In this document: in pieces, positions 13,383 to 39,044 of the stretch
Numbering within the stretch: the first letter of the stretch is position 1
Layout of the letters: every line of letters begins with the position of its first letter
From: Crocinitomix sp.
Lineage (GTDB): Bacteria; Bacteroidota; Bacteroidia; Flavobacteriales_D; Crocinitomicaceae
DNA length: 54,536 nucleotides
NCBI GenBank assembly: GCA_013138735.1
Contig: WTCE01000115.1
Location: 1-54,536 of the forward strand
Direction of reading: 5' to 3'
Made by a program: the position numbers and the translations under genes
The notes under the pieces: generated by a model
Seen by the model: only the letters and a program-made list of their open reading frames with translations
What the model was told of the DNA's origin: nothing
Database searches by the model: none

Positions 13383-14048
13383 ATGGTTCGAATTGTTCTT
13401 TTGGATAGTAGAAAACTATTTAGAGTTTCACTTAAAAGTTTAATCAGCAGCTTCACGAATTGCGAAGTTGTATTAGATATCTCCTCTTTAAAGGAGGTGC
13501 CAAAAGATTACGATTTTAAAAAAATTCATTTGGTAATTATTGACCCCGCTTCAATCAAAGCAGGAGGTTTTCAAAAAGCCCAAAATTTCTTCAATTATTC
13601 CCGTATAATGGTGCTAACGGACTTGATTGAACGCGAACATATTATGGATTATATGCAGCTTGGAATTTCAGGTTTCTTTTCTAAGGATGATTGCCCTTCA
13701 CAACTTGAGATGGCGATACAAGATATATCTAATAATTATGATTTTGAAGAAGTACGTTTGGGATCAGTGATAAGGCAATCACTCATCAGTAATATTAAAG
13801 GAATGAATCGTAAGAAGTTTTCATTTTCCGATCGAGAGATTCAAGTTTTAAAGCTGGTTTGTTTAGAAAAAACTAATGCCGAAATATCTGATATACTCGG
13901 ATTGAGTGTCAGGACAATTGAATCACACCGCAGGCGTATGATCGAGAAAGCTGATTGTAGAAGTATGATTGGCGTTATTTTGAATGCCATTGAGTTGAAA
14001 TGTGTTAACCTAAACGCTACTAATACTCAACGACATCAGGCTTCCTGA
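13383..14048 (+). CDS. NarL/LuxR-type response-regulator-like protein 1
   Basis: 221 residues: a receiver-like domain (about 1-125) and a C-terminal LuxR helix-turn-helix (FSDREIQVLKLVCLEKTNAE, ISDILGLSVRTIESHRRRM). The phosphoacceptor position is kept (D54 in VIIDPAS), as are the threonine in VLTD and the lysine K101 (GFFSKDD). However, the acidic pair at the N-terminus is D8-S9 rather than two acids, so Mg binding and phosphorylation may be weak. No histidine kinase gene is adjacent. A paralogue with the opposite defect lies 187 bases downstream. Both precede the secretion operon in the same orientation and probably control it. Confidence 0.82.
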   Translation: MVRIVLLDSRKLFRVSLKSLISSFTNCEVVLDISSLKEVPKDYDFKKIHLVIIDPASIKAGGFQKAQNFFNYSRIMVLTDLIEREHIMDYMQLGISGFFSKDDCPSQLEMAIQDISNNYDFEEVRLGSVIRQSLISNIKGMNRKKFSFSDREIQVLKLVCLEKTNAEISDILGLSVRTIESHRRRMIEKADCRSMIGVILNAIELKCVNLNATNTQRHQAS

Positions 14049-14074
14049 AAAATAAAATAATAATTTTTTTATAA

Positions 14075-14111
14075 AACTGAATCGTAGAATCTGTTAAATG
14101 TCGATTCAGTT
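14075..14111. terminator. Strong hairpin between the two regulator genes
   Basis: A perfect 10-bp inverted repeat (AACTGAATCG at 14075-14084, CGATTCAGTT at 14102-14111) with a 17-base loop lies 27 bases after the stop of regulator 1. The plus strand continues TCATTTTAG, only a weak U-run. The minus strand continues TTATAAAAAAATT. It is probably a terminator or an attenuator between the regulators. Confidence 0.45.
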
Positions 14112-14164
14112 CATTTTAGAGTTCTTTGTTTCTTGGATTAAAAATTTTAACGAGTTAATAAGTA

Positions 14165-14182
14165 TTAAGTGTTTATACTGTT
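14165..14182 (+). promoter_or_regulatory. Putative operator, site 2 (TTAAGTG-N4-TACTGTT)
   Basis: TTAAGTG TTTA TACTGTT lies 53 bases before the second regulator start. It shares TTAAGTGT-N-TATACTG with site 1, 872 bases upstream. A near-consensus -7 box, TACCTTAG (7 of 8), lies at 14199-14206. The two regulator coding regions are clear paralogues, so a shared ancestral promoter is a simpler alternative to a functional operator. The site at 26582 argues against that. Confidence 0.45.
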
Positions 14183-14235
14183 GAATTTTGTCAAATTATA
14201 CCTTAGTTTTACAGCGTAAACCCCACCCTTATAAC

Positions 14236-14880
14236 ATGTCAAAAAACGCTATTCTAATTGATGATGATGAACTTTTTAGAGCTGGTTTAACACGATTAAT
14301 TGACTCTTTCGAAAATTTTGAAGTTAAATTAAGTGTCGGCTCAACAGAATTCAAACGGTTGGCTGAAGGAGAAAAGAGTAACAAATGTTATGACTTAATT
14401 CTTTTGAGTGTGCCAATGAACACGGATGAAGGAATAGATATCTGTGAAACATGTGTGCGCTTTTATTCCCCAAGTCCAGTCATGATAATTTCGAATTTTT
14501 ATTCGAAAAATACGGTGATGAAAGCGATTGAATCGAGTGTTTCGGCATATTTCACAAAAGGAATTTCGCCAGTTGAATTGGAAAGCATAATGATTGAATT
14601 AACTGCAAATAAAAACTTTCCAGATATTAAATTGGAATTGAAAGTGCGCCAAGTTCTATCAACCGAAGAGCAGATGAATATTTCATTCACCGAAGCCGAG
14701 GAGCAAGTCTTGCTATTGGTTTGTCAACAAAAAAATAGTACTGAAATCTCTAATGATTTGGGCATAAGCGTGCGTACAGTCGAATCGCGAAAACGGAATA
14801 TGATGCTAAAAACACATAGCAAAAATATGATCGGTGTCGTCATGATTTTTATGCGGGCTGGTCATTCTCAAAATGCATAA
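14236..14880 (+). CDS. NarL/LuxR-type response-regulator-like protein 2
   Basis: 214 residues from the ATG at 14236; the frame is open further upstream only to a TTG at 14188, inside the presumed promoter. The receiver-like domain keeps the acidic triplet D9-D10-D11 (AILIDDDELFR) and K108 (AYFTKGIS). The phosphoacceptor aspartate is replaced by serine (S58 in DLILLSVPMN), so it cannot be phosphorylated in the usual way. The C-terminal LuxR helix-turn-helix is intact (FTEAEEQVLLLVCQQKNSTE, ISNDLGISVRTVESRKR). It resembles regulator 1 closely in design. With 119 bases to the next gene, it may drive the secretion operon or be co-transcribed with it. Confidence 0.82.
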   Translation: MSKNAILIDDDELFRAGLTRLIDSFENFEVKLSVGSTEFKRLAEGEKSNKCYDLILLSVPMNTDEGIDICETCVRFYSPSPVMIISNFYSKNTVMKAIESSVSAYFTKGISPVELESIMIELTANKNFPDIKLELKVRQVLSTEEQMNISFTEAEEQVLLLVCQQKNSTEISNDLGISVRTVESRKRNMMLKTHSKNMIGVVMIFMRAGHSQNA

Positions 14881-14999
14881 ACGCCTTCATAGAATCCTTC
14901 CATTTTTCTAAGCCAAACTCTTAGCTATATAATCCAAGCAAACAAAGCAAATTTAGTATTAACTGTTATTTGATTCATTCAAATACGAACAATTTAAAT

Positions 15000-15668
15000 A
15001 TGCAAGTGTTTGTCAAAACACCTTTTATAAGACTATTGTTATTGAGCGCTATCATGTTCAGTGCAAACGCTAATGCTCAAAATTTAGCTGAATTGCGGCA
15101 TTTTACTACACCGCATTATAAGATGGATTTTTACATTTCTACAATACAAAAAAAAATCAATTATACAGACACCTTAGACTATCATTGGTACAAAGCCCAA
15201 AAGCTGCATATCACGCAAGGTGGATCCGCTGGGGATTTATTGCATGGTGATTTTCAAAAATTTCATGTGGGCGGACAGCTTGCGGAACGCGGAGAATTTA
15301 GATATGGATTAAAAGATGGTGAATGGTTGACGTGGTATGAATCAGGGGCAGTAAAATCTAAATTAAACTATAATGACGGTGTGCTTAAAGGTGCTTTTAC
15401 CACCTATTCAAAAGAAGGTGAAATCACAGAAAAAGGCAAGTTTAGAAAAGGTCTCAAAAAACTACAAAAGCCGCAAAAAGATAAATCATCTGAGGAGCGG
15501 CAAGAATCTGAGGAACTGGATCCTGATAATGAAGAGATGCCGTGGTATAAGAAAATATTCAAATTTGAACGAAAAGAAAATCCTGAAAGAGATCAGAAAC
15601 GCCTTGCAAGAAGAAGACGCCGACAAGAAAAAAAAATGGAAAAAGAACGTGAAGTGAAAAATGATTAA
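15000..15668 (+). CDS. Secreted MORN-repeat protein heading the secretion operon
   Basis: 222 residues from the ATG at 15000, which gives a proper signal peptide (FIRLLLLSAIMFSANANAQ). Residues about 80-150 hold three to four MORN-like repeats (HGDFQKFHVGGQLAERGEF, KDGEWLTWYESGAVKSKL, LKGAFTTYSKEGEITEKG). The last 70 residues are extremely charged with runs of Glu, Lys and Arg (ARRRRRQEKKMEKEREVKN). The stop overlaps the next gene by 8 bases, so translation is coupled to the K-like pseudopilin. A periplasmic or surface accessory of the filament machine is plausible; I know no precise family role. Confidence 0.65.
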   Translation: MQVFVKTPFIRLLLLSAIMFSANANAQNLAELRHFTTPHYKMDFYISTIQKKINYTDTLDYHWYKAQKLHITQGGSAGDLLHGDFQKFHVGGQLAERGEFRYGLKDGEWLTWYESGAVKSKLNYNDGVLKGAFTTYSKEGEITEKGKFRKGLKKLQKPQKDKSSEERQESEELDPDNEEMPWYKKIFKFERKENPERDQKRLARRRRRQEKKMEKEREVKND

Positions 15669-16908
15669 ATCAAAAAAAATACAAGCTTCTGCTATTTATT
15701 ACGCTCTATTTCTGAGTGTAATATTTGCCCTGATTCTTGGTGGATTCATTTTGCTATCTGGATTCAATCAAAAATTTGCTCTGCAAATGGATGTAGAAGA
15801 AATATTGATTGATAATTCGCATTCAGGAATGGCTTATGCGCAAGTATATTTTAAAGAATTAGAAAATAATGCTCCCACAACTATTCGCCTTTTTGATGAG
15901 GGAGTTGATTCGGTAGAATTGGTAAAGAAGAACTGGGGAGCTTTTACCATTTTAAGTTCTAAGGCCTCGCATAGAAATAGCACGCAGTCTAAAATTGCTT
16001 TATTTGGTGCGGCACTTTCTTCCAAACAAACGAATCTTTATCTAGTGGATAATGGCCGTCCAATATCTCTTTGTGGTGATGCTAGAATTGAAGGACTTTG
16101 TTTTTTGCCTAAAGCCGGATTAAAAAGAGCCTATATTAATGGTCAAAATTATACTGGCGGAAAATTGGTTTATGGAACCGTTAAAACAGCGAACAAGCAA
16201 TTGCCGTCTTTGCAATCGAATTTCTTAGAAGAGTTAATTCAGGTAAATGGAGAATTGACTGAATGGAATGAGGACGAAGATTCAATTATTGTGTCATTTG
16301 GAGGCAATGCTGCACATTTCTTATCGGATCGTTATATCACTATTCAAAATACGGTCATTAAAGGTCAAGTTATAGTTGAAGCAAGGGATTCAATTTTCGT
16401 TGGGCGAAACGCAATTATTGAAAATGCTGTGCTAAAAAGTAAAGTCATTTATATTGAAGCAGGTTTCTCAGGGACAGCTCAAATTTTTGCTTCTGAACGC
16501 ATTATAATTGAAGAGGATGTGAGCCTCAAATATCCGAGCGTATTGTGTTTAATTGAGGAACAGTTTTCAACTGAAAAATCAGCAGAAATTTATATTGGTG
16601 AGGGAAGTCAAGTCATTGGAACCGTCTTTATGTTCAGCAAAACGCCAAATTTCAGAAAACCACCAATGTTAACAATTGAGAGCGAAGGAGAAATAGATGG
16701 TTTAGTGTATTGTGCTGGAAAAACACAATTGAAAGGTATAATTAATGGTAGTCTATTTACGGAAAAATTATTTCTTAAAACTGGCTCATCTGCTTATGAA
16801 AATCACCTCTTGAATGGAAAAATTTTAGATCAACTACCTAAAGATTTTGTTACTGCGAATTTATTTGAGACAACTGAAGTGTTACAACAAATTGCTTGGT
16901 TAGAATGA
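15661..16908 (+). CDS. Pseudopilin-like protein with beta-helix domain (GspK-like position)
   Basis: 415 residues. The N-terminus looks like a type IV prepilin: a short basic leader (KSKKIQA), then a hydrophobic helix SAIYYALFLSVIFALILGG, with Tyr rather than Glu at position +5. Lack of Glu5 is typical of GspK-type tip pseudopilins. The C-terminal half (about 200-390) is a run of short hydrophobic strands with regular spacing (ITIQNTVIKGQVIVEARDSI, AIIENAVLKSKVIYIEAG, GEIDGLVYCAGKTQLKG), which reads as a right-handed beta-helix or bactofilin-like fold. It overlaps its neighbours by 8 bases (upstream) and 4 bases (ATGA, downstream). The combination is unusual; assignment as K-like rests on position and the Glu5 loss. 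Confidence 0.6.
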   Translation: MIKSKKIQASAIYYALFLSVIFALILGGFILLSGFNQKFALQMDVEEILIDNSHSGMAYAQVYFKELENNAPTTIRLFDEGVDSVELVKKNWGAFTILSSKASHRNSTQSKIALFGAALSSKQTNLYLVDNGRPISLCGDARIEGLCFLPKAGLKRAYINGQNYTGGKLVYGTVKTANKQLPSLQSNFLEELIQVNGELTEWNEDEDSIIVSFGGNAAHFLSDRYITIQNTVIKGQVIVEARDSIFVGRNAIIENAVLKSKVIYIEAGFSGTAQIFASERIIIEEDVSLKYPSVLCLIEEQFSTEKSAEIYIGEGSQVIGTVFMFSKTPNFRKPPMLTIESEGEIDGLVYCAGKTQLKGIINGSLFTEKLFLKTGSSAYENHLLNGKILDQLPKDFVTANLFETTEVLQQIAWLE

Positions 16909-17276
16909 AATGGAATCTTAAAAATAGCGACTCGAATAGATTACCGGCATTCACACTTTTTGAATCGGTGATTGCCATTACCATTATTACGGTTTTGATT
17001 GGTTTGGGGACTATGATATATGGAAATTTGATGCATTCAGAAAAACCACTCGCCTATTATCAAGCACAGGCAGAAGTAGAGGTTAGGCTGCAAGAATTAA
17101 AATCCAAGCAACTCTTTATGCGTGAAAATTTCGAGTATGAGAACTATGAGATTGAACAAAAGGTGACGTTTTACAAGGGTAATAAAAAGCTCTATTTAGT
17201 GACATATATCGCGCGGGCAGGTGATAAAGAATTACTCGTTGAAAATCATTTAATCCCGAATAGTAGCAATGAATAA
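16905..17276 (+). CDS. Minor pseudopilin (GspI/J-like)
   Basis: 123 residues from the ATG at 16905, which overlaps the previous stop (ATGA). The class III signal sequence is visible: leader ending LPA, then FTLFESVIAITIITVLIGL with Glu at +5 (E20). The leader ends in Ala rather than Gly, as do the other pseudopilins here, so the local prepilin peptidase may accept Ala at -1. The small globular C-terminus (Tyr/Glu-rich) has no recognised signature. It overlaps the next gene by 8 bases. Confidence 0.78.
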   Translation: MKWNLKNSDSNRLPAFTLFESVIAITIITVLIGLGTMIYGNLMHSEKPLAYYQAQAEVEVRLQELKSKQLFMRENFEYENYEIEQKVTFYKGNKKLYLVTYIARAGDKELLVENHLIPNSSNE

Positions 17277-17769
17277 ACCAAGCAAAATAGCGGCCTTTAC
17301 CATGGTGGATATTATGACTGGAATGATCATTACAAGCATCATTATTTCAATGGTGTTCTACTTATTTACGAGCATCAATAAACAGGTTTCAACCTATGGT
17401 AACGTGCGGAATGAGTTGAATGAGTTTTTATTACTGAAATCGGATTTAAAACGACAATTTGAAAAAAGTGAACATAAGATAATTGGTATTCCTGGTGGGA
17501 TTTCCATTCTTGGGCCATCATTCAAATTGAACTATATAAAAGAGGGGGATTTATTGATTCGAACAGAAAAAAATGGCACGGATACATTGACGCATCATTT
17601 GAATGAATTTGAGCCCGTTTTTGTTATAAATCAATTGGGAGTTTCGACCGAAAAAATTAGTGCACTCAACGTATCTGTCCAAATGGACAATCAAGAATTA
17701 TCCTGTCATCTCTTCAGAGAATATGGCCCTATAGATGCGATTAATAGAAGCCTGTTACATGAGTTTTAA
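17269..17769 (+). CDS. Minor pseudopilin (GspJ-like)
   Basis: 166 residues. The prepilin motif is KIAA followed by FTMVDIMTGMIITSIIIS, with Asp (D14) at the +5 position in place of Glu, a conservative change that would keep the negative charge. The globular part (about 40-166) contains paired strands and a LLLKSDLKRQFEKSE helix near the N-terminal helix, as in GspJ-like minor pilins. It is coupled to both neighbours by overlaps. Confidence 0.75.
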   Translation: MNKPSKIAAFTMVDIMTGMIITSIIISMVFYLFTSINKQVSTYGNVRNELNEFLLLKSDLKRQFEKSEHKIIGIPGGISILGPSFKLNYIKEGDLLIRTEKNGTDTLTHHLNEFEPVFVINQLGVSTEKISALNVSVQMDNQELSCHLFREYGPIDAINRSLLHEF

Positions 17770-18904
17770 GATCGAGAAACATATCGAAACCAGAACGGTG
17801 TCTAAAAGCACTGCTCCAACTAAAAAAAAGGAAAACTTCTTCAATCGCGATATTCAGTTTTTTGGCAAGCGTTATGGCAATAAAAAGAAAGAACGTTTTT
17901 ACATGGATTTGAGAACGCTTTTATTGGCAGGAGTAGATCTTAAATCGGCATTAGAAATTATAATTGAAGAGCAAGAAAAGGAAGCAGACAAGGAAATGTA
18001 TTCAGAATTATATGAAGGCATTTTAAAAGGAAAATCATTATCACAGGGATTAAAGGATTTAGGCAAATTTTCCGAATACGAATATTTCAGTATTGAAATT
18101 GGAGAAGAGTCAAATCGTTTGAACGAAGTATTGACTGAATTGATGAATTATTATTCAGATCAAGCGGCACTTAAAAAGCAAATAACTTCAGTTCTTTCCT
18201 ATCCACTTTTCGTTTTTGCTATTACCATAGGACTCGTTTATTTCATGATGACCAGTGTTGTTCCCATGTTTGCAGATGTTTTTAAGCAATTTGGAAGTGA
18301 ATTACCAAGCTTAACTTTAAAGGTCATTTACCTGTCAGAAAATTTTCCTTTTTTCTTCTTGATTTTCGCTTTAAGTGTGACTGCAATCGTACTCTTTGTT
18401 CGTACCCAAAAAGAAAAGGATTGGTTTCGCAGTTCAACCTCAAGTTTTTTCTTAAAAATTCCAATGATAAAAAACCTCATAACGGTAATTTATTTAGCAC
18501 GATTTACACAAGCCTTGCATCTGCTCTTAGCCGCAAAAACACCTCTTGTTAAGTCGCTTGAATTAACGCAGAAAATGGTGAAATTTTACCCACTCCAAGT
18601 GGCTATTGAACAAGTGAAAGAAGACATCCGAAAAGGCAAAACAATGCATGAGGGTATGTCCAACTTTTCGATTTTTCCTAAGCGAATGTTGTCGCTCATA
18701 AAAGTGGGTGAGCAAGTCAATCAATTAGAAAATATGTTAGGAAAATTAGCAAAACAATACAACGACGAATTGAAGCATCAAACCACAATTATTGGAAAAA
18801 TAATGGAGCCCCTGATCCTTTTAATTATAGGAACAATTGTAGGGGTAATTCTAGTGGCAATGTACATGCCAATGTTTAACCTAAGTAATATTATGGCACA
18901 ATGA
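17759..18904 (+). CDS. gspF: Inner-membrane platform protein GspF/PilC
   Basis: 381 residues from the ATG at 17759 (an in-frame ATG at 17735 is also possible). It shows the duplicated T2SS-F domains. The first (about 50-165) has DLRTLLLAGVDLKSALEIII and GEESNRLNEVLTELMNYY. The second (about 255-370) has FTQALHLLLAAKTPLVKSLE and VGEQVNQLENMLGKLAKQYN, each before membrane helices (LSYPLFVFAITIGLVYFMM; EPLILLIIGTIVGVILVAM). It is the core of type II secretion and type IV pilus assembly platforms, contacting the GspE ATPase. It overlaps both neighbours (11 and 4 bases). Confidence 0.92.
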   Translation: MSFKIEKHIETRTVSKSTAPTKKKENFFNRDIQFFGKRYGNKKKERFYMDLRTLLLAGVDLKSALEIIIEEQEKEADKEMYSELYEGILKGKSLSQGLKDLGKFSEYEYFSIEIGEESNRLNEVLTELMNYYSDQAALKKQITSVLSYPLFVFAITIGLVYFMMTSVVPMFADVFKQFGSELPSLTLKVIYLSENFPFFFLIFALSVTAIVLFVRTQKEKDWFRSSTSSFFLKIPMIKNLITVIYLARFTQALHLLLAAKTPLVKSLELTQKMVKFYPLQVAIEQVKEDIRKGKTMHEGMSNFSIFPKRMLSLIKVGEQVNQLENMLGKLAKQYNDELKHQTTIIGKIMEPLILLIIGTIVGVILVAMYMPMFNLSNIMAQ

Positions 18905-19347
18905 AAACAAGAAATAGAGAAATAGAAAAGGCCAATATAGTGGGCCGCAAAAAGGGATACGTTAATGCCTTTTCATTGGCTGAATTAGTATTCGTATTAG
19001 GAATTATAGCCATCCTATACATGCTCGTTATGCCAAGTCAGGCTGGGGTAGTTGCCCAAGCCAAGTCATTAGAAGCGAAATCTAATTTGAACCAGGTATA
19101 TGCCTTGGAAAAAAATTACTTTTTCATGTATTCGAAATATTCGACGAATTTGAGCGACATCAATTTCGAGCAAAACCGTCTCGTAACTGAAAATGGCCAA
19201 TCGAACTATCGGATCCAGATAATTGAAGCATCAAATTCTAGTTTTGTCGCACAGGCAGAATCCGTAACAGACTTTGACGCAGACGGCACTTTTAATGTTT
19301 GGACCATTAATCAAGACAAAGAATTGGTAGAAACTGTGAAAGACTAA
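18901..19347 (+). CDS. gspG: Major pseudopilin (GspG-like)
   Basis: 148 residues. After a 23-residue basic leader ending VNA comes the canonical prepilin helix FSLAELVFVLGIIAILYMLV with Glu at +5 (E28). The helix is followed by QAKSLEAKSNLNQVYALEKN, the conserved N-terminal pilin region, and a small globular domain. Near its C-terminus VTDFDADGTFNVWTI resembles the calcium-binding loop of GspG-type major pseudopilins. It lies between the F platform and the prepilin peptidase. Single-base overlap with the next gene. Confidence 0.82.
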   Translation: MKTRNREIEKANIVGRKKGYVNAFSLAELVFVLGIIAILYMLVMPSQAGVVAQAKSLEAKSNLNQVYALEKNYFFMYSKYSTNLSDINFEQNRLVTENGQSNYRIQIIEASNSSFVAQAESVTDFDADGTFNVWTINQDKELVETVKD

Positions 19348-19838
19348 TGCTAGAAATTATTTGCCATATCGCCTTAGGAGTGCTTTTAATAATCGCTTTT
19401 TTACAAGACTGGAAACACCGCGCCATTAGCTGGGTTATTTTCCCTTTGCTTTTAATAGTCGCTGGGTTAATTTTTTGGACGGCTGATTTATCAAAACTAA
19501 CCTTGGTTTTTAATATGGTTTTTTTAACAATAGTTATAGGTTGTTTATTCCTTTATGTGTCATTTAAAAGAGGGGAGTTAACCAATATTTTTAAGGCCGA
19601 TTTAGGATTAGGAGATGTTCTATTCTTGATTGCCATTACACCGCTTTTTATGGATCGGAATTACATTCTTTTTTTTATTACAGGAATGATAGTTTCTGGT
19701 TTGGTGCACCTGGCAATTGCTGGAGGCAAAAAGAATGTAAAAATACCTTTAGCTGGTTATTTAGCCTTATACATTATTGGCCTAAAATCATTTGAATTCA
19801 TTTCTAGCACTGATTTGTTTTACACCGCAATATTATAA
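19347..19838 (+). CDS. Prepilin peptidase, A24 family, catalytic domain only
   Basis: 163 residues, wholly membrane-embedded with about six helices. The two catalytic aspartates of the A24 aspartyl proteases are D21 (FLQDWKHRAIS) and D90 within the GxGD motif (DLGLGDVLFL). The usual N-terminal zinc-binding methyltransferase domain of GspO/PilD is missing, so the protein is closer in size to archaeal and Tad-type minimal peptidases. It would cleave the leaders of the four pseudopilins in this operon. Overlaps its neighbours by one base each. Confidence 0.88.
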   Translation: MLEIICHIALGVLLIIAFLQDWKHRAISWVIFPLLLIVAGLIFWTADLSKLTLVFNMVFLTIVIGCLFLYVSFKRGELTNIFKADLGLGDVLFLIAITPLFMDRNYILFFITGMIVSGLVHLAIAGGKKNVKIPLAGYLALYIIGLKSFEFISSTDLFYTAIL

Positions 19839-21256
19839 TGATAGAGAATAAAGAAATAGCGATTTCATTAGAGTTACAACAACTCATTAATGCTGATATG
19901 GCTTGGAATTATGGTGTCATTCCAGCAAAGGTTGATGCGGATACAATTCAATTCTACATTAGTCAAGAAACAGATCAGGAATTCATTCAAGATGACTTAG
20001 AAATATTGATGGGTAAATCAGTTGAATTTATTCAACTCGACCATATTGAATTTAGAAAAAATCTGGGGAAATATTACCGCCGATCAGGAAATAATACGGA
20101 GAAGAAAGTAAGCACACACCAAGGTGATAAGGATGATTTTTTATTGCAAATTATTCATGAAGCTCGCGGCATTGGAAGCAGTGACATCCACATAGAGATT
20201 TATGAGGAAGTGGCGCGGGTTCGCATCCGAATTGATGGACATTTGGTGGAGAAATACAAACTAGAAAAAGAAGAATATCCAGAAATTGTAAACAAAGTAA
20301 AAATTAAGTCCAATTTGGACATTACCGAAAAGCGATTGCCACAAGATGGAAGGTTAAGTTTTGCCGAATTTGATGTCCGTGTATCTATTTTACCAACCCT
20401 ACATGGCGAAAAAATAGTATTGCGAATTTTGTCAAGAGATGCTTCGCAAGTGGATTTAAATAAATTGGGTTTTGAAGACAAAGAGAAGGCTGATTATTTA
20501 GAAGGTGTAAAGCAGCCCAACGGAATTGTCCTAATCAGTGGTCCAACCGGATCGGGCAAAACCACTACGTTATATGCCACACTCAAAATATTAAATGAAG
20601 AAAAACGGAATATTGTTACCGTTGAGGATCCAATAGAATATACATTAAAAGGAATTAACCAAGTCCAGTTAAAAGAGAATATTGGCTTAACATTTTCAAG
20701 TGCATTGCGCTCTTTTTTGCGTCAAGATCCTGACATTATTATGCTAGGGGAGATTCGGGATGCAGAAACGGCACAAATGGCTATTCGAGCGGCACTTACT
20801 GGGCATTTAGTCTTATCAACTATTCATACAAACTCGGCCTGGGGAACAATTTCCAGATTGATTGATATGGGCGTTCCATCTTATTTATTGGCTGGAACAA
20901 TCAACACTTCCGTTGCGCAAAGGTTGGTGCGCATTTTATGCACGGCATGTACAAAAGAAACCGACTTAGCGCAAATAGAATTACCCAAAAACTTTAGGGA
21001 CAAAGGTTTGACGAAACACCATGTACCTGTTGGTTGCGAAAACTGTCATTATACTGGATATAAAGGTCGTAAAGCCATATATGAAGTCATTAATATAGAT
21101 CACGAATTATCGGATCGGATTAAAGAAGAACAATTAAAAGTGGATACCCTTTTGAAAGAAAGAGACATTGAAAAAATTAGCGAAAAAGCGTATCGTTTGC
21201 TAGCTGAGGGAATTACTTCTTTGGAAGAAGTTTATGCCTTATTAACAAATATTTGA
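19838..21256 (+). CDS. gspE: Assembly ATPase GspE/PilB
   Basis: 472 residues. N-terminal N1E-like domain (about 1-80), then N2E (SSDIHIEIYEEVARVRIRID), Walker A GPTGSGKT (235-242), Asp box (VTVEDPIEYTL), Walker B with G304-E305 (IIMLGEIRD), His box (TGHLVLSTIHTNSA), and the tetracysteine zinc motif typical of assembly ATPases: C368, C371, C400, C403. The zinc motif and short N-terminus fit GspE/PilB, not the retraction ATPase PilT, and no PilT is present in the operon. It powers pseudopilus polymerisation at the inner membrane. Confidence 0.95.
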   Translation: MIENKEIAISLELQQLINADMAWNYGVIPAKVDADTIQFYISQETDQEFIQDDLEILMGKSVEFIQLDHIEFRKNLGKYYRRSGNNTEKKVSTHQGDKDDFLLQIIHEARGIGSSDIHIEIYEEVARVRIRIDGHLVEKYKLEKEEYPEIVNKVKIKSNLDITEKRLPQDGRLSFAEFDVRVSILPTLHGEKIVLRILSRDASQVDLNKLGFEDKEKADYLEGVKQPNGIVLISGPTGSGKTTTLYATLKILNEEKRNIVTVEDPIEYTLKGINQVQLKENIGLTFSSALRSFLRQDPDIIMLGEIRDAETAQMAIRAALTGHLVLSTIHTNSAWGTISRLIDMGVPSYLLAGTINTSVAQRLVRILCTACTKETDLAQIELPKNFRDKGLTKHHVPVGCENCHYTGYKGRKAIYEVINIDHELSDRIKEEQLKVDTLLKERDIEKISEKAYRLLAEGITSLEEVYALLTNI

Positions 21257-21259
21257 AGC

Positions 21260-23176
21260 ATGATGAAATTTAAAATAATGATCCTGGCATTTGTCATTTC
21301 CCTCTGCGGATTTGGGCAAGAACCTTCGCTGGCTGAAATGGAACGAAATATTCTGGACATGGCAAAGGTTCAACCTGGATTGAACGAAAAAGTGCAGGTG
21401 AGCGTGTCTGGAATTGCACTTTCCGATTTTATATCTGCCATAGCTTTTGAGCATAATTTAAATGTTAGCGTGTCTGATAATTTAAATGGCTTGGTAGTGA
21501 ATAATTTTTATGATGCCGTTGTGAAAGATGTCTTTATTTTCTTGATAAAAGAGCATGATTTAATTGTCGATTTTTCGGGAACTATTATTGCTTTTCATAA
21601 ACGAGGCGTAGCAGAGGAAATTCAAACCCCTTATCAACCGAGAGCAATAGATGTTACTTATAAAACTGAAAACGAATTTTTGTCATTGAACCTAAAACGC
21701 GATACCTTGTCGAAAGTTGCTGAAGCCATAACACGGGAATCAGGCAAGAATGTGATCTTGGCACCAAGCATTAAAGAACGCACTGTTTCTGTCTATATCG
21801 AAAACAGACCATTTGAGCAAGTAATGGATATGATGGCCAAGTCAAACGGATTGAGTTTGACGACTGATGCAAATGGTTTTTATTATTTGGATACCCAAGA
21901 ATCTAAGCTAACAAACGGCGCTAATAATACAAGTTCGGGCAGAAACAATTCGGGTCGTGGAACAACTTCCAATGAAGCTCAAAATTTGAATTTGCAATTG
22001 AATCCAAATAATCCCGAAAAATTAAATATTGAAGCCACTAACACATCAATTAGTGCCATTATTGAATCCGCTTCGGCGCAACTTGGAGAACACTATTTCA
22101 TGTATGATACTCCAGAAGGAAATACAACCTTAAAAGTTCATAATGTATCGTTTATGGAACTGCTTTCTCATTTGCTGAATGGAACAGATTTCACCTTTAA
22201 AAAGATGGAAAATTATTATATAATCGGCAATCGAAACACAGAAGGATTAAGAGCTACAGAATTGATACGATTAGACAATCGAACAATTGAAACAGTGATT
22301 GATTTGATTCCTTCAGAACTCGTTGCGGATATTGAAATAAAAGAATTTGTAGAACTCAATGGAATGATTGTTTCAGGGTCTTATCTTAAAATTGAAGAAT
22401 TAAAGGCTTTTATTCGTTCGGTAGATCAAGTTGTGCCAATGGTACAAATCGATATTATTATTGTTTTTTCTGAACGATCAAGCGGAATAACGAAAGAAAT
22501 GAAAGCTGGGCTGAGTCAAGAATCAGTTCCCACCCAAGGTCAAGTTTTCCCTGGTGTTGATATGACATTGGGTTCCGAAACAATTAATGGATTAATTAAT
22601 GCCTTCAACGGATTTGGAATTGTTAACATTGGCGCCGTAACACCCAATTTTTATGCTTCGTTAAAATACTTGGAAAGTAATAGTGTCATAGATATTTCAT
22701 CCACACCAAAAATCTCCACGCTCAATGGTCACGAGGCCACTTTTTCAGTTGGAGAGACCTCTTATTATCAAGAAGAGCGCGTAAATATTCAGTCCTCGAT
22801 TGGTGGACCTGTGCAAGTATCAAACAAAGTATGGAAACAAACTGCGGCAAACTTAGATATAACAGTTAAACCATTCGTGTCGGCAGATGAATATGTCACG
22901 CTAGAAATTAATGTAACCCAAAATGATTTTCAAGGAAAAGTTGATCCTACAGCTCCTCCCAATCAATCTACACAATCCTTTGTTTCCCTAATTCGGGTTA
23001 AAAATGGTGAAATGATATTGATGGGTGGTTTGGAAAAAGAAAACAGTGAGAATTCAGGATCGGGCACCCCTTATTTATCACGTATTCCGATTTTAAAATG
23101 GTTTTTCAGTGATAGAAATCAGCAAAAAGAAAAATCGAAATTGCACATCTTTATTAAACCTACGGTAACCTATTAA
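21260..23176 (+). CDS. gspD: Secretin GspD/PilQ, outer-membrane pore
   Basis: 638 residues with a signal peptide (KIMILAFVISLCGFGQ). The periplasmic part has several secretin N-domains (about 45-120, 140-210, 250-325 and 330-390; e.g. ALSDFISAIAFEHNLNVSVS and NTSISAIIESASAQLGEHYF) with a Ser/Asn/Gly-rich linker near 215-245. The C-terminal secretin domain begins near 390 (VPMVQIDIIIVFSE) and includes NSVIDISSTPKISTLNGHEA and NGEMILMGGLEKE, with IFIKPTV at the end. It forms the outer-membrane channel for the filament or substrate. Two in-frame ATGs overlap the start (21260 and 21263). Confidence 0.93.
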   Translation: MMKFKIMILAFVISLCGFGQEPSLAEMERNILDMAKVQPGLNEKVQVSVSGIALSDFISAIAFEHNLNVSVSDNLNGLVVNNFYDAVVKDVFIFLIKEHDLIVDFSGTIIAFHKRGVAEEIQTPYQPRAIDVTYKTENEFLSLNLKRDTLSKVAEAITRESGKNVILAPSIKERTVSVYIENRPFEQVMDMMAKSNGLSLTTDANGFYYLDTQESKLTNGANNTSSGRNNSGRGTTSNEAQNLNLQLNPNNPEKLNIEATNTSISAIIESASAQLGEHYFMYDTPEGNTTLKVHNVSFMELLSHLLNGTDFTFKKMENYYIIGNRNTEGLRATELIRLDNRTIETVIDLIPSELVADIEIKEFVELNGMIVSGSYLKIEELKAFIRSVDQVVPMVQIDIIIVFSERSSGITKEMKAGLSQESVPTQGQVFPGVDMTLGSETINGLINAFNGFGIVNIGAVTPNFYASLKYLESNSVIDISSTPKISTLNGHEATFSVGETSYYQEERVNIQSSIGGPVQVSNKVWKQTAANLDITVKPFVSADEYVTLEINVTQNDFQGKVDPTAPPNQSTQSFVSLIRVKNGEMILMGGLEKENSENSGSGTPYLSRIPILKWFFSDRNQQKEKSKLHIFIKPTVTY

Positions 23177-24360
23177 TGCAATATGATTTAGGACATATTA
23201 GTAAAATTGTTGTAGTGCATATTGCCCTTGACGGCGATCGTGTGGAATATCATTATATGTCCCTAAAACAAGCAAAGGGTGAAATTGACTTTGTGGCAAG
23301 AGGTGAGCGTATTTCAGATTTGGACGCCTTAATTAAGACTACGTCAAATCGGCATCCTTTTTTACTTCATTTTACGGGGAAAGGCATTCTAAATCGCAAG
23401 GCTGTGTTGCAAGAAAACTATCATCACAGTATTTTGCTGAATGGAAATTTAGATGCTTTTTACTTTTCAGATTATATCGAAGGACAAGAAGTTTATTCTT
23501 CAGTGATTAGAAAGGATGTTGTGGATGATTATGTCCGTCAATTCACGGATAAAAAATGCCAGATTATATCCATTTCATCCGGTCCATTTCATACCGCAAT
23601 TTTAAATGGGGTTCTAAATAAAGAGACATTAACGATAGGCAATACGCAACTTCAATTTCAAGAAAATTTATTGACAGATTTCACCAAAATAAAGTCCGAA
23701 GAAAATGAAAGGCGTTCCATTACACTTGGTGGAGAAAATATCCCTCATAAATTGATTGTTTGTGTCGCAGCAGGTGCCGCTTTTTTTAACCCAAATGAAC
23801 AGTTGGTTCACCCCGTAAATGACACCATTTTCACTGCAAATAATGAAGAGGCCAAACAAAAGAACATTTTCGCTCGTTTTGGTATGGGAATGATGGTTTT
23901 TTTCCTCCTACTATTATTAGCGAATCATCTTTATTTAGGACACTTAAATCAGGTTGTGCTTGACAATTCAGTCTACCTCATGGCTTATGATGAGCAACTC
24001 ACATTAATTGCAGATTTGGAAGATGAAAAAGGTCGAAAAGAAAAACTCTTGCAATCTTCCGGATTATTGAATAAAAATTTCCTCTCTTTTTACCTCATGG
24101 AAATTGCAAATTCAGTTCCTTCAGAAATTTCGTTTGATGAAATTGTTTTACGACCATTGAAAGAGGAGATAAAACAACGCAAAAAAATAGCATTTGAAGA
24201 ACATTTAGTAATGGTAAACGGACGTGCTCAAACCAGTCATATTTTAAGTCAATGGATCGAGGAAATAGAACAAAAAGAATGGCTCTCAAAAGTGGATATT
24301 TTAAGTTACGATTATGAAAAAAATGAAGGTGTTTTTGAATTAGAAATGATTGTTTATTAA
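23176..24360 (+). CDS. GspL-like assembly protein (PilM-PilN fusion type)
   Basis: 394 residues. The first ~230 form a cytoplasmic domain with alternating strands and a C-terminal IVCVAAGAAFF stretch, consistent with the actin-like PilM/GspL cytoplasmic fold. One membrane helix follows at about 236-256 (MGMMVFFLLLLLANHLYLGH), then a periplasmic coiled region and a ferredoxin-like domain (SVPSEISFDEIVLRP). That layout is GspL, or PilM fused to PilN. It would link the GspE ATPase to the periplasmic part of the machine. It follows the secretin with a one-base overlap and precedes the M-like gene directly. Confidence 0.75.
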   Translation: MQYDLGHISKIVVVHIALDGDRVEYHYMSLKQAKGEIDFVARGERISDLDALIKTTSNRHPFLLHFTGKGILNRKAVLQENYHHSILLNGNLDAFYFSDYIEGQEVYSSVIRKDVVDDYVRQFTDKKCQIISISSGPFHTAILNGVLNKETLTIGNTQLQFQENLLTDFTKIKSEENERRSITLGGENIPHKLIVCVAAGAAFFNPNEQLVHPVNDTIFTANNEEAKQKNIFARFGMGMMVFFLLLLLANHLYLGHLNQVVLDNSVYLMAYDEQLTLIADLEDEKGRKEKLLQSSGLLNKNFLSFYLMEIANSVPSEISFDEIVLRPLKEEIKQRKKIAFEEHLVMVNGRAQTSHILSQWIEEIEQKEWLSKVDILSYDYEKNEGVFELEMIVY

Positions 24361-24897
24361 ATGTTTGATCGGTTTACATATCGCCAAAAAAATTACGGGC
24401 TACTTGTATTGGTAGTGTTAATGTTTATTGTTAGTTATAAGCGGGCTTTTTCATTAACCTTTGTGGTACAAACTGAAATCGAAAATCAGGAATTGCGAAA
24501 AGCGGATGCCACCCATGCTAAAACGGATCTGGAATTGTTACAAATTCAAGTCAAACAGCTCAATAAAAATATTGGCAAATCGGACTTAGAGCCTGACAAA
24601 GTACAACAAGAAATTTTAAGAACAATCACCCTGTTTTCTAATGAACACGAAGTAATGTTGGATGAATTAGAAGCCACACATAATTATGAAACAGTCGACT
24701 TTAATATCTACTCCAATTTAGTGGCGGTAAAAGGCACTTTTAATGGACTTTTATCATTGGCTTATTATATGGAAAACGAATTTGATTATGCGCGACTCAC
24801 TAACATTTCAATTTATAAAGAACAAAATTTAACAACAAAAAAAACAGCATTATATGCAAATCTATTATTTCAACATTATCGACAAAAGGAAGATTAA
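24361..24897 (+). CDS. GspM/PilO-like assembly protein
   Basis: 178 residues: a short cytoplasmic N-terminus, one membrane helix (YGLLVLVVLMFIVSYKRAFS), a coiled coil (ELRKADATHAKTDLELLQIQ and on) and a C-terminal ferredoxin-like domain (VDFNIYSNLVAVKGTFNGLL). This is the standard GspM/PilO plan, the partner of the GspL/PilN protein encoded immediately upstream with no gap. Sequence signature alone is weak; size, topology and position support the call. Confidence 0.75.
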   Translation: MFDRFTYRQKNYGLLVLVVLMFIVSYKRAFSLTFVVQTEIENQELRKADATHAKTDLELLQIQVKQLNKNIGKSDLEPDKVQQEILRTITLFSNEHEVMLDELEATHNYETVDFNIYSNLVAVKGTFNGLLSLAYYMENEFDYARLTNISIYKEQNLTTKKTALYANLLFQHYRQKED

Positions 24898-25876
24898 AAA
24901 TCTGCTTCGTTTCAGTTTAGTATTGCCATGCTTATGGTTTATCATAGGTTGCAATGCCATTTTTGAAAAAGACATTACGGCAGAAACTCCAAGTATGATT
25001 TTACCAACGAATAATGATACCGTTTACTCCAATAAAGTACATTTTAAGTGGAATGAGATGGAGGGTGCCTCGTTTTATAATTTGCAAATTGTAAAACCTT
25101 CTTTTTTAGATATCAATGAATTTGTTTTAGATTCCAATATCAATGGAGAAGAATTTTATCAGATCCTGCCGCCAGGAGATTATCAATTTAAACTCCGTGG
25201 AGAAAATGGGGGATACGTTTCTCAATTCGCTGGGCCCTATTCTATTTATATAGATAGTGTTTCAGATTTGTCCGCTCAATTTGTATCGCTTGTTTCACCA
25301 GCTGATAATGTTTATAATAATGGCACTAGCAATATAACCGTGAGTTGGCAAAACCTCTTCGCTGCAGATTCTTATGACTTCATTTTAAAAATTGGAAGTG
25401 ATTTTGCAAGTGGCTCAGTACTCGATCAGCAAATCGGAATTAATACATTATCCCATGGCATTACAGCGGACCAATTTGATGTTGAAGGAACTTATTTTTG
25501 GGGTATTAAAGGAGTGAACGTAACAGGTAGCTCGCCTTATACTTATCGGCAAATTAATGTAGATCTTACAGCGCCAAATGATCCTGTTCTTATTAGTCCT
25601 GCTGATGAAATTGTTCATTCAATTGATGATCCAATCACTTTAAAATGGTCCACAGGAATTGATCCAGGAAGTGTAAACTCACTAGTTGTTTCTGCGGTGG
25701 AAATCTCAACGACTCCCACATTTATCGATTATGTTGAATTTGATAATATAACCACAGATTCTTTGGTCTATACTTTTCCAAGCATTGGTGATTATTATTG
25801 GAGAGTTAAGGCGGATGACGAAGCTGGTAATTTTAGCGAGTTTTATAGTGCTCAATATTTGATAATTGTTGAGTAG
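24854..25876 (+). CDS. Lipoprotein with FN3-like repeats (machine accessory)
   Basis: 340 residues. The signal has a lipobox ending IIGC, with lipidated cysteine C33. Three tandem beta-sandwich units of about 95 residues follow, each with the same landmarks: an opening such as SPADN or LPTNND, a central Trp (VHFKWNEMEGASFYNLQI; ITVSWQNLFAADSYDFIL; ITLKWSTGIDPGS) and a closing YYWRVKADDEAGNFS-type strand. This is an FN3/Ig-like fold. It overlaps the M-like gene by 44 bases, showing tight coupling. Its place between GspM-like and GspC-like genes suggests a secretin-associated (pilotin-like) or substrate-binding outer-membrane lipoprotein. Confidence 0.68.
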   Translation: MQIYYFNIIDKRKIKNLLRFSLVLPCLWFIIGCNAIFEKDITAETPSMILPTNNDTVYSNKVHFKWNEMEGASFYNLQIVKPSFLDINEFVLDSNINGEEFYQILPPGDYQFKLRGENGGYVSQFAGPYSIYIDSVSDLSAQFVSLVSPADNVYNNGTSNITVSWQNLFAADSYDFILKIGSDFASGSVLDQQIGINTLSHGITADQFDVEGTYFWGIKGVNVTGSSPYTYRQINVDLTAPNDPVLISPADEIVHSIDDPITLKWSTGIDPGSVNSLVVSAVEISTTPTFIDYVEFDNITTDSLVYTFPSIGDYYWRVKADDEAGNFSEFYSAQYLIIVE

Positions 25877-26389
25877 ATGAATAAAAAAAGTTGGACTCGG
25901 ATTTTAATTGTGATTGTTGCTGGCTTGTGGGCCTACAACATCTACCGTACAGTGGAAAATTACCAAGTGACAACTGAAACGCAAAGTGAACAGCAAAACA
26001 CAAACATGTCTTTTGCACCTGTCATGTTTAATAAAGACACCTTTTTACTTGACCTTCCATTAGAGGATCCTTTTTTGAGAAACGGAACAAGGTGGAGTCA
26101 ATCAATGACAACCTCCAATGTTCCACCTTCAGCAAATCAATCGCAACGAAATCCCCAACGTCAAAATCCTGCACCGCCAATTGATAAAAAAATAGAATGG
26201 CCAGCAATAGAATACTTTGGTTTTATTCGAAATCACACAGCAAATCATCAATTGTGCATGCTCAAAATAGCCAACAAAAATCACCGCCTTTCAGTTGGCG
26301 ATTCAAAAGGGCAAGTCACCCTAATTCAAGCCTATTCCGACTCTGTTGTTCTATCATTCTTAAATGAATTAAAAACGGTCAAGAAATAA
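25877..26389 (+). CDS. GspC/PilP-like periplasmic connector
   Basis: 170 residues: a single N-terminal membrane helix (WTRILIVIVAGLWAYNIYR), a linker with PLEDPFLRN (the PFxR/DPF signature common to GspC and PilP proteins), a Pro/Gln/Asn-rich stretch (about 85-105), and a small beta domain (IEYFGFIRNHTANHQLCML, LSVGDSKGQVTLIQAYSDSV) that matches the HR/PilP domain pattern ending in a GxVTL strand. It would bridge the inner-membrane assembly complex and the secretin. It is the last gene of the machine operon. Confidence 0.78.
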   Translation: MNKKSWTRILIVIVAGLWAYNIYRTVENYQVTTETQSEQQNTNMSFAPVMFNKDTFLLDLPLEDPFLRNGTRWSQSMTTSNVPPSANQSQRNPQRQNPAPPIDKKIEWPAIEYFGFIRNHTANHQLCMLKIANKNHRLSVGDSKGQVTLIQAYSDSVVLSFLNELKTVKK

Positions 26390-26758: not shown

Positions 26759-27184
26759 ATGCTAAAAAAAGCCATTTTCACCATCTTAATCTTGTTTGCT
26801 TTCAGCGCAAGTAATTTAAGTATTGCACAAACCGATTCTACAGATCTTTCATTATTTATGACAGATGCGACCATACTGACCGCAATGGATACTATGTTAT
26901 ATGGAGATGGTTCTTATGAACAACTCAATTTAGATTTTGAGGTGACTGATTCTGTCACTTTTAGTAAAGTTCATGTGCAAGTTGTAGAAGTAGCTACGAG
27001 TGCCGTTATCTTTAAAAAAGTATACCAACTTTCCTATTTGCAAGCCCAAAGTTTAATAGCCGAATGGAACGTATCTATTCCACTTGGAAATCTAGTCAAT
27101 ACAAACGCGTACCAAGCGGCAATCATTGTTGAGCAATATGATGGTTCACTCGGTTTAACAATAACAAAGACCCTTAATCCATGA
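26759..27184 (+). CDS. Small secreted protein opening the cargo operon
   Basis: 141 residues with a signal peptide (AIFTILILFAFSASNLSIAQ). The mature part is an immunoglobulin-like run of strands (YEQLNLDFEVTDSVTFSKVH, VQVVEVATSAVIFKKVYQL, NTNAYQAAIIVEQYDGSL). No family recognised. It overlaps the next gene by four bases (ATGA). Its position directly after the regulated promoter and before the DNRLRE giant suggests co-export with it. Confidence 0.62.
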   Translation: MLKKAIFTILILFAFSASNLSIAQTDSTDLSLFMTDATILTAMDTMLYGDGSYEQLNLDFEVTDSVTFSKVHVQVVEVATSAVIFKKVYQLSYLQAQSLIAEWNVSIPLGNLVNTNAYQAAIIVEQYDGSLGLTITKTLNP

Positions 27185-30100
27185 TAAAAAAGGTATTTAA
27201 AAAAATAGTATTGTTGGGGATAACGGCGTTTTGTTATTTCCCATTCCAATCATTCGCACAAACTACCATTAATTATACGGCTGATAGCACCATGAGTGAT
27301 GCTATGGTTGCCAATGGTGGGGTAGAAAACTCGAACTTTGGCTCGCAAAACCAAATGAATGTTTATCATCAACTCAACCAACAAATTCCAATGGCTTTTA
27401 GAACTTATATTCAATACGATTTAAGTGCTATTCCGAATGGTGCAATTATTACAGAGGCCAAATTAAAATTAATGACACTTTCTGTTAATAATGCTATTAA
27501 TCATCCTATTTATATAGAACGCGTTGGCAGTACATCATGGTACGAAGATACAATTACATGGAACAATCAACCCAGTATAATTACCGCAGATCAGCTAAGT
27601 TTTACCCATGCCCAAACTTCAAGTACTGGGCTGCATGAATTTGTGGTAACCGACCATGTTCAAAAAATGATCACCAATCCAAATTCTAACAACGGTTGGC
27701 GTATCCGACTGCAAAGCGAATCTGGTAGCGCCGATTTTGGAATCAATTATTATGCATCTGAGTCAAGTAATTCAGCAAAAAGACCCGTTTTAACCATTAC
27801 CTATATTTTACCCTTAGAAATGACAACTTCAGTTGATCATTGCACTGCCGGTAATTCAGATGGAACTATGAGTGTTATGGTTTCTGGTGGAAATTCCTAT
27901 GCTTTAGCCAATATGTATTTTTATAAAACGGTAAGAGATACGACCCAATTAGGTAAGGCAACATTAACCAATGCAAAAGTCACAAACAACCTACTATATA
28001 ATACAGGAACTGGAGAAGTCACAGCAGACAATCTGGAACCAGGAGTCTACATTCTAAGAATTTTAGATGCAGATTATTATACCAATTCAGATTTACGCTT
28101 TGCATACTACAAACACATTATGGTGGGCCGAGAAGGAGAAATGACAAGTGGCATTTTACTACCGAACTATCAATATCAAGAAAACGTCACGATAGAATTT
28201 GATAAACCCACAAACTCGAATCCATTAGATCGGGCCAATACAAATTATCACAGCCAAACAACAAGTATTCCCTTACGTATTTCAGATGCGCCCAACAATT
28301 ATGAAAAAGCCGCTTTAATTAAATATGAATTAGATTTTGATGATCAATTAGAATTCACTGTAGCCGAGCTGAAAATTAAAGCCTGGAGTAGTTTTTTTAG
28401 ACATAACAATTCATCAAACGCTGTTGATTACACGCTAATCACAGAAGATTGGCATGAGTCAGATGTGACTTGGAATACACGTCCAGCAACAGATACCAAC
28501 TATCGCGTTAATGTTCCGACCACAACCTATATAGGTTATGATCCCGTCCATAATTTGGACACAGTTGACATTTTAACTATGGTAGAATATTGGCAAGACA
28601 ATCCAAGTGATAATTACGGTTTTGAAATGGCGCTTGAGACTTATGGTGCAACGCAATATGCTTCGCGCGATTATAAGTCGGCGAATACTAATGCAAACTA
28701 TGTTTATTTTGAGTGGAGTGTGATTGAGGCTGTTTCAGCAACTTATGATGACGATACACAACTTGGATCAGTAGTAGTGAATGCACCAGAAGGTAGCCCG
28801 CTTCCCTACAAATATTTAATAAGTTATAATCCACTTCCTGAACTTTCAACCATTTGGACTGCAATCAAAGATTCAATCCCTGTGGATAGTGCGACTTTTT
28901 ATGCGGGTGATGTACAATCAACAACTTTTACATTTGAGGCTCTTGATGCAGAGCGTTATTATATTGGCGTTTATGATAATAATGGTGTTAAGATTTTAGA
29001 TGGCAAAGCCAATGTTACTCCAGAATTAACCCTGCTCGATAATGCAAATATTGATTTGACGGATGGTACATTAAAAAGAGGTCAAAGTCAAGGCAACGGA
29101 AGTGCCATATTAGACGGGATGTTACAGCCGAACCAAAGCGGTGGTTTTGAATTTGAAGTCACTGCAATCGGTGGCAATATGGTTATTGGATTCAATGACC
29201 AAAGTGAATCAAAACCATTAACTACGGCAGATTTTGAATATAGTTTCGAGTTGTTTACAGATAATACCTTCAATGTTTTAAAGTCTGATTCAGTATTGTT
29301 TACAGATACAGTTGAAGTAGGCGATATTTTCAGACTTACAAAACAGAATAATCAAATTGTTTATAATCTGAATGAATTTGAACTGCACCGAGAAGCAATA
29401 TTGATAGATGAGCGCGTTAGTTTGAATGGTGGGGTATTGGTTAGGACTCCGACAATTGAAATTTCGCATGCTGTTAAATTAGAGCATTATAAACCAAGTA
29501 TTCGACCGCTAACCACAATTCCTTTTCAAATGGAATGTGGTGATCAATTGGGGAGTGTTAGAGCGGCTTACACAGCTCCTGAGTTTTTTGGAGGGACCGG
29601 AAGCTATAGCATTACCAACATAATCACTGAAATAATAGAAGCCACAGGGCCGATTGCAGATGTCTTGGTGGGTGGAGTTGATTTACCTGTTGGCGAATAT
29701 CGTATTGATTATAGTTATACAGTTGGAGGAATAACATATACATTCACCCATTTCTTTACAATTGGTTATCCGATTTTTTGGAATGTGCTAAATCTAGATT
29801 TTGCAGAGATTGATGGAACTGTAAATACGATAACGGCTCCTAGTTTGCTCAATTCAGGTCTTGCAATAAGTCAAAACAATTTACCGCATAGTGATGGCGG
29901 GTGGGTGTCTTATAATGTCAGTTTGTACAAATATTATGTGCCGTATGGAGATGATCCAATGATGCCACTTCCAACAAAAGCTTCTATCAAATTTGTCGAT
30001 CAATTTATCAATACAGAGGTTGAAGTGATGGTTGTCAATTACGGTGGAGGTATCATATCGAATTACATTTGGGTGGTTGGAGATGAGGGAAATATGTTTA

Positions 30101-38324: not shown

Positions 38325-39044
38325 ATGAAATATTACATCAGTTTATTGTTATTTACTTTTCTTGGAGGCTCGTTTAGTGCCCAGGCAGTTGATATTGTTA
38401 AAGAATTGAAGGAACTAAATCAACATTATTTTGAATTGGAAGAGCTCCAACTCAATTTTGAAATAGAATATATTGATAGAAGTGGGTTCTCTCTTGCGAA
38501 ACGTTCTGGTGAAGTGGTTCATACTAAAGAAGTCCATTTCGTTGATTTGAACGGGAATATTACATTAATTAATAAGGATGAATATGTATCCATAAACAAT
38601 GAATTTTCTACCATAATATATAGCGATTGGAATGGTAATAGTGCTCCTGCTTCACAAATGGATGAAATGACAGTAATGATTGATTCTTTATGGGAAAACA
38701 GAGGAGAGATCGATTTTGAGGTTTTGAGTGCAACAAAAAACCAAGTTCGTGTGCTTATCAATGATAATTCAGACCCAAATATTAATGGATATGAAATGTT
38801 GGTAGACATCAATAAGAATAAACTACTAGAATTCAAATATTATCTCAGAAATTTGAATTCGGATGAACCCGTTGACCATGTGATAGTGCGCTATACAAAT
38901 GAAACGTCAAAAGTCAAATTGAAAGATCCAAAATTCAAGGTTTCCAATTATGTGAAGCGAAAAGGAAAAGAATTGGAGCCAACCACTTTATTCGCTGGAT
39001 ATGAAATTATTAGTCAAAATCAAAATATTGAAGAGCATGAATAA
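38325..39044 (+). CDS. LolA-like periplasmic protein
   Basis: 239 residues with a signal peptide ([19 protein letters not shown]). The mature protein has the strand order of LolA/LolB-like or outer-membrane lipoprotein carrier folds: a first helix [19 protein letters not shown], then antiparallel strands ([59 protein letters not shown]). It sits between the two RHS giants, overlapping the second by 8 bases. A periplasmic export or handling factor for them is plausible; function not proven. Confidence 0.55.

Follow-up and report, generated by a model that had tools for sequence, protein, structure and literature searches.

The stretch of DNA analysed here, termed the window in the following, is one whole contig (WTCE01000115.1; G000:C35) of 54,536 bases from a draft genome of Crocinitomix sp. 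with a size of 6.84 Mb and a completeness of 97.5%. Between positions 14970 and 26389 it contains 13 open reading frames (ORFs), all on the plus strand, which on the basis of Pfam and NCBIfam matches and the ORF list code for a type IV filament machine. The 12 junctions between these ORFs lie between an overlap of 44 nt and a gap of 3 nt, sizes that depend on the ORF starts, which are the first start codons as given by the tool. The tightly packed 13-gene operon described in an earlier note on this DNA is thus confirmed by the common strand of the genes and by their family matches. Its account of a complete machine in a single operon without PilT also holds, since the PF00437 ATPase family has a single match in the whole genome; this sole match is the ATPase of the operon, so that no PilT or PilU was found in the genome. 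The Secretin family likewise has a single match. We regard this machine as a real and complete member of a kind that is already known but little studied; what stands out, as far as sequences tell, is its phylum-wide pairing with Rhs proteins.

Components of the machine

The family search that the earlier note had proposed as a check returned strong Pfam matches (E-values in brackets) for three components: the inner-membrane platform F of the GspF/PilC family (17735..18904; T2SSF, 2.3e-42), the assembly ATPase E (19838..21256; T2SSE, 5e-125; MshEN, 5.9e-6), whose tetracysteine site, listed in the same note, can be read directly from the sequence as CxxC...CxxC, and the secretin D (21260..23176; Secretin, 2.3e-36; STN, 1.5e-7). 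Weak matches, throughout below cut-offs, were obtained for the peptidase O, the MORN protein, L and the pilins; Pfam yields nothing significant for K, M, C and the lipoprotein of FN3-like type.

The operon starts with an exported protein containing MORN_2 repeats (14970..15668; MORN_2, 2.6e-5, below cut-off), a repeat type that also occurs in YwqK-like proteins. It is followed by a K-like minor pilin (15661..16908) and by two further minor pilins, the first of which (16896..17276) carries an alanine preceding FTLFE and shows weak N_methyl and ComG matches (ComGF, 0.0014, below cut-off), and the second (17269..17769) an alanine preceding FTMVD, a motif recognized by eye, together with a ComGF match (9.1e-5) that is also below cut-off. 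In the major pilin G (18901..19347; PilA_Myxo, 2e-8, below cut-off) the alanine precedes FSLAE. The residue before the prepilin cleavage site is usually a glycine; alanine occupies this position in 41 of the 42 major-pilin ORFs of Crocinitomicaceae, a count in which some genomes appear twice, and among 30 such ORFs of other Bacteroidota we found 15 with glycine, six with alanine, one with leucine and eight without the motif. The prepilin peptidase O (19347..19838) is a minimal protein of 163 aa comprising the A24 core, with a score of 26.3 bits at a cut-off of 26.5 bits (Peptidase_A24, 1e-5).

Since the structure model of the K-like protein consists of a pilin helix and a beta-solenoid head, the designation given in the earlier note fits by N-terminus and place only. 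The best match of this model is ComZ, and GspK is not among its listed matches, a listing that cannot exclude GspK.

Downstream of the secretin, L (23176..24360) is predicted to combine an actin-like domain, a transmembrane segment and a ferredoxin-like domain in one protein, which is the architecture of GspL; its PilN match in Pfam (0.004) is below cut-off. The M-like protein (24361..24897) has no significant family match in Pfam or NCBIfam and is assigned from its position, which is that of GspM or PilO, its size and its conservation. The adjacent lipoprotein (24854..25876), whose FN3 label is that of the earlier note, contains an invariant Cys 33 (alignment A4) in a sequence that by eye resembles a lipobox, and the C/PilP-like protein (25877..26389) an invariant DPF motif (alignment A6). 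Profile searches against PDB sequences led for C to the GspC HR domain at E 0.27 only, for L to weak matches with fusion chains of G protein-coupled receptors only, and for K and the FN3-like lipoprotein (the latter at E 0.01) to nothing.

Relationship to type II secretion systems and type IV pili

The earlier note had left open whether the machine is of the type II secretion system (T2SS) or the pilus type, a caution that is borne out by our results. The scores of all four NCBIfam T2SS equivalogs remain below cut-off, with 119.6 of 351.35 bits for GspD, 465.3 of 630.25 for GspE, 245.7 of 424 for GspF and 18.6 of 88.85 for GspG, and the same is true for the 481 bits of E against the PilB equivalog. 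In the tree of E, the Bacteroidota ATPases are grouped with PilB of type IVa pili at 94/95 and four classical GspE proteins form their own clade at 100/99; the AU test does not reject an arrangement in which the Bacteroidota ATPases join GspE (p-AU 0.067). The tree of F does not resolve T2SS from type IVa pili (p-AU 0.32). The ATPase tree leans to type IVa pili, and the machine is probably derived from, or close to, these systems. An ATPase of the machine type, 57.5% identical, is also found in the 11-kb plasmid record NZ_CP091287.1 of Flavobacterium jumunjinense.

Distribution and gene order

The closest named relatives belong to Crocinitomix and other Crocinitomicaceae; the secretin of an uncultured Crocinitomix metagenome-assembled genome (MAG) shares 90% identity with that of the window. 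Of the 38 named loci, 28 contain the full order MORN-K-min1-min2-F-G-O-E-D-L-M-FN3-C and the remaining ten a part of it, cut by contig ends or split. The MORN_2 gene leads the order in 28 of these 38 relatives and the gene of the FN3-like lipoprotein is present in all 28 complete orders; because of this conservation, we count both genes as members of the operon. Within the family, the occurrence of the secretin is patchy (13/60 genomes), a count that leaves out one weak match of 14 (G039, 2.7e-15), which was treated as lacking the machine. Among 395 genomes of the phylum, 71 show a match to the secretin model A1 at E 0.001, of which the 32 better than 1e-40 were defined as machine-bearing and the 39 weaker ones (best 3.5e-16) as being without machine. 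Two copies of the machine are located on contigs CAMAXI010000021.1 (L054) and CAMAXI010000022.1 (L057) of a MAG labelled Chryseobacterium gleum. A Crocinitomicaceae-type machine with the Rhs set on the opposite strand is found in CP034120.1 (L064), whose record name Glaciecola amylolytica appears to be wrong.

Association with Rhs proteins

Further downstream on the plus strand, the window contains two giant genes whose products are candidate cargo: RhsA (31761..38312), a protein of 2183 aa that constitutes the first half of an Rhs pair and is recognized by the N-domain models A2 and A9, and RhsB (39001..46605), a YD-repeat protein of 2534 aa (RHS_repeat, 2.2e-5) with an Rhs associated core (TIGR03696, 37.2 bits, above the cut-off of 32.5). 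To avoid circularity, the A9 model is based on 11 loci that were taken from the family of the window and its near kin and that all lie outside the other 31 machine-bearing genomes of the sample. With the window's own genome left out, this model detects RhsA in 28/31 machine-bearing compared to 37/363 other genomes, and it places RhsA within 20 kb of the secretin in 21/31 machine-bearing genomes, where 0.61 would be expected at random placement, and in nine of ten families. The corresponding P value of 7e-31 overstates the linkage, because the calculation presumes random placement and takes no account of the relatedness of the genomes; the spread over nine of ten families is the better argument. 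The A2 model, which was partly built from the tested loci themselves, finds RhsA in at least 30/32 machine-bearing and at least 47/363 other genomes, with linkage in at least 21/32, and within the family in 13/13 machine-bearing and 9/47 other genomes. The control gene ComEC is located within 20 kb of RhsA in none of the 32 machine-bearing genomes.

The flanks of the 38 named loci, which extend over up to 10 kb, reveal RhsA or RhsB in 18 cases. The phylum set comprised 32 stretches, which cover 30 of the machine-bearing genomes (all but G000 and G411). Searched with profiles derived from the family and from these same stretches, 25 of them show an RhsB-type protein and 13 have RhsA as best match; the RhsB figure covers these stretches alone. 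The combination is also found on independent replicons, which supports one functional unit of machine and Rhs proteins: plasmid 14 of Persicobacter JZB09 (CP012857.1, 40,338 bp) holds the complete set of 13 machine genes along with Skp, a small protein, RhsA and RhsB, plasmid 6 of the same strain (CP012864.1) the machine, RhsA and two RhsB, and a Pontibacter plasmid most machine genes near genes annotated as RHS repeat and DUF6443. The constant neighbourhood of RHS and DNRLRE genes considered in the earlier note holds in part, with RhsA near the secretin in 21/31 genomes and DNRLRE neighbours in the Crocinitomicaceae set only.

Neighbouring genes

The DNRLRE/CBM96 protein of the window (27181..30642; NF033679, 7.4e-36; CBM96, 2.6e-31) is exported and a possible cargo. 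As constant cargo it was rejected, since it is present in the Crocinitomicaceae set and not in the 32 phylum stretches. It is followed on the same strand by a Skp/OmpH-like periplasmic chaperone (30645..31154; OmpH, 9.6e-18) and by the small lipoprotein-like protein p31151 (31151..31759), with linked homologues and often encoded beside RhsA. Between RhsA and RhsB lies a gene for a protein resembling the LolA3 family (38325..39044, plus strand; NF053579, 7.4e-17, 61.6 bits at a cut-off of 83), which was rejected as a constant component because its own profile matched the window alone. The NF053579 family has five matches better than 1e-15 in the 32 machine-bearing genomes, four of them above cut-off, and all five share a contig with an RhsA at a distance of about 6-22 kb according to the listed coordinates. 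In F. johnsoniae, lolA3 is reported as Fjoh_0605, a locus tag close to those of the machine cluster Fjoh_0611-0622.

The RhsA of the window has no match to any Pfam family at E 0.1, and hence none to the SpvB and TcdB domains of the B-C pair of Tc/ABC toxins. Among 44 Rhs C-termini from machine-bearing stretches, single ones match domains of the toxin type such as Cytotoxic, CHAP or PT-HINT. Runs of short Rhs-core fragments, as in polymorphic-toxin arrays, are located beside the machine in L123, L118-L119 and L116 (stretches G355, G174 and G078). Upstream of the operon, two LuxR-type response regulators (13383..14880, plus strand; GerE, 5.3e-12 and 8.2e-8) are candidates for its local regulation. 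Near the contig end, two adjacent genes (51248-53118) resemble recombinases or integrases by eye, which suggests mobile DNA.

Discussion

We consider it reasonably likely that the operon codes for a type IV filament machine of the T2SS-like kind of Bacteroidota, spanning two membranes and lacking a retraction ATPase, and that this machine serves as a pilus-derived exporter, probably of Rhs proteins. In such a mechanism, the ATPase E would drive the platform F, together with L, M and C, so that a short filament of G grows in the periplasm; the prepilins would be cut beforehand by O after the alanine, and the minor pilins and the beta-solenoid pilin would sit at the tip. RhsA, RhsB and perhaps the DNRLRE protein would reach the periplasm via Sec, where the Skp-like chaperone may hold the Rhs proteins until they are pushed through the secretin D to the surface or the outside, with the FN3-like lipoprotein and the MORN protein acting as dedicated accessories. 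With their variable C-terminal domains, the exported proteins might act as in polymorphic toxins. A wider proposal is plausible but more tentative: the T2SS-like machine of Bacteroidota would be a secretion system of its own, descended from type IVa pili independently of T2SS and dedicated to Rhs proteins, and in most of the families having it machine and cargo would travel together as a unit, including on plasmids. The pairing of the machine with giant Rhs proteins, phylum-wide and shared by plasmids, offers a concrete cargo hypothesis which, if true, would provide Rhs proteins in Bacteroidota with a way out other than the type IX secretion system (T9SS).

Several observations weigh against this interpretation. 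Rhs shells are large relative to the pore of a secretin. Descent from type IVa pili is not settled by the trees of E and F (p-AU 0.067 and 0.32). RhsA is located beyond 20 kb from the secretin or absent in 10/31 machine-bearing genomes, and six stretches show neither RhsA nor RhsB, a short contig of G080 and those of G347, G070, G075, G221 and G277, the latter five being devoid of any Rhs gene. Conversely, RhsA occurs without the machine in 37/363 genomes (A9) and in 9/47 family members. The very end of the DNRLRE protein weakly resembles a T9SS tail (TIGR04183, 10.6 bits at a cut-off of 23), so that this protein may be T9SS cargo. In C. hutchinsonii, the proteins in the spent medium of mutants in the corresponding cluster are described as hardly changed (Wang 2017, PMC5553014).

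These mutants bear on two other explanations, as they are reported to show poorer growth on and adhesion to cellulose and changes in outer-membrane proteins, some of which are lost (Wang 2017, PMC5553014). The loss of adhesion and of outer-membrane proteins would suit a T2SS-like exporter of general purpose that handles many enzymes or surface proteins, with Rhs genes nearby since both reside in mobile accessory islands, and the patchy distribution (13/60 in the family and 32/395 in the phylum, weak matches dropped), the plasmid copies and the occurrence of RhsA alone point in the same direction. We nevertheless regard this explanation as unlikely, in light of a lopsided dependence, where the machine lacks RhsA in 3/31 cases but RhsA the machine in 37 of the 65 RhsA-bearing genomes (window's left out), and of a linkage that recurs in nine of ten families with differing gene arrangement. 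The adhesion phenotype would equally suit an adhesive type IV pilus on the cell surface, beside which the Rhs and DNRLRE proteins would be surface adhesins with an export path of their own; the grouping of the ATPase with PilB at 94/95 and the ComZ match of the K-like model point the same way. The lack of a detectable PilT and the GspL-like fusion make such a pilus improbable, the former argument being softened by the existence of extension-only pili.

ComZ, a below-cut-off match of G to ComP_DUS (3.2e-4) and the presence of ComEC in this as in all 32 machine-bearing genomes might indicate a pilus for DNA uptake, but with no PilT found and ComEC residing unlinked on another contig, we assign very little probability to this role. 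The case named in the earlier note as a refutation, competence or twitching with PilT and ComEC, was considered and not encountered. A cluster of this kind is present in F. johnsoniae, a species that was not transformed in one reported test; there, searches for PilT and for the VirB11-like ComB11 both led to the same single protein, and the authors still consider a T4P-type uptake system possible (PMC7965970). It is finally conceivable, though in our view improbable too, that the machine is real but is not the way out for the Rhs proteins, which would instead use the T9SS or some other route. SprA is encoded in the genome, as are at least 150 T9SS tails of type A (150 of 423 candidates scored), and RhsA occurs without the machine; none of the 150 listed tails lies on the window contig, and at E 0.01 none was detected in the 44 Rhs C-termini from machine-bearing stretches, including RhsA and RhsB of the window, which leaves room for internal or unrecognised T9SS signals. 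A further point against the export of Rhs proteins by the machine is that 24/24 Rhs C-termini from genomes without machine also lack the tail, implying that these proteins either have a different exit or do not need the machine.

Comparison with known systems

The machine shares with classical T2SS the secretin, the single ATPase, the GspL-like fusion and the fact that no PilT was found, and it differs in GspD, E, F and G scores below the equivalog cut-offs, in the modelled beta-solenoid of the K-like protein and in an ATPase that the best tree places outside the GspE clade. The window encodes three minor pilins, one fewer than the four minor pseudopilins of a classical T2SS. From type IVa pili it is distinguished by the lack of a detectable PilT, the fused L in place of separate PilM and PilN and the single operon, whereas the ATPase is nearest to PilB in the best tree and ComZ is the best match of the K-like model. 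An earlier analysis has placed the T2SS-like system of Bacteroidota with type IVa pili and away from T2SS, as a possible new secretion system (Denise 2019, PMC6668835).

That such a locus would stand out in Bacteroidota, as claimed in the earlier note, is weakened by this and other descriptions (Wang 2017, PMC5553014; Duchaud 2018, PMC5808330). Zhang 2012 (PMC3482391) was rejected as a precedent, because T2SS there refers to the general secretory pathway. In CC-ST10 of F. psychrophilum, a 35-kb T2S cluster, for which a dedicated role was proposed, encodes OmpH/Skp, a putative adhesin and two proteins that contain ABC-toxin domains in addition to its T2S genes; it differs from the window in its restriction to one lineage of one species and its two opposed gene blocks (Duchaud 2018, PMC5808330). 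Within the accessible portions of the open-access literature, preprints aside, this is the only pairing of the machine with Rhs-like genes that we met, and no proven cargo of a Bacteroidota T2SS-like system was met there. The closest correspondence in gene order is provided by the clusters CHU_3191-3202 of Cytophaga hutchinsonii and Fjoh_0611-0622 of F. johnsoniae, which share the same order (Wang 2017, PMC5553014): their succession minor pilins-F-G-O-E-D-L-M-x-C, with L, M and C equally undetected by Pfam in that account, is matched by the window, which by gene order adds the MORN protein, the FN3-like lipoprotein and the Rhs set.

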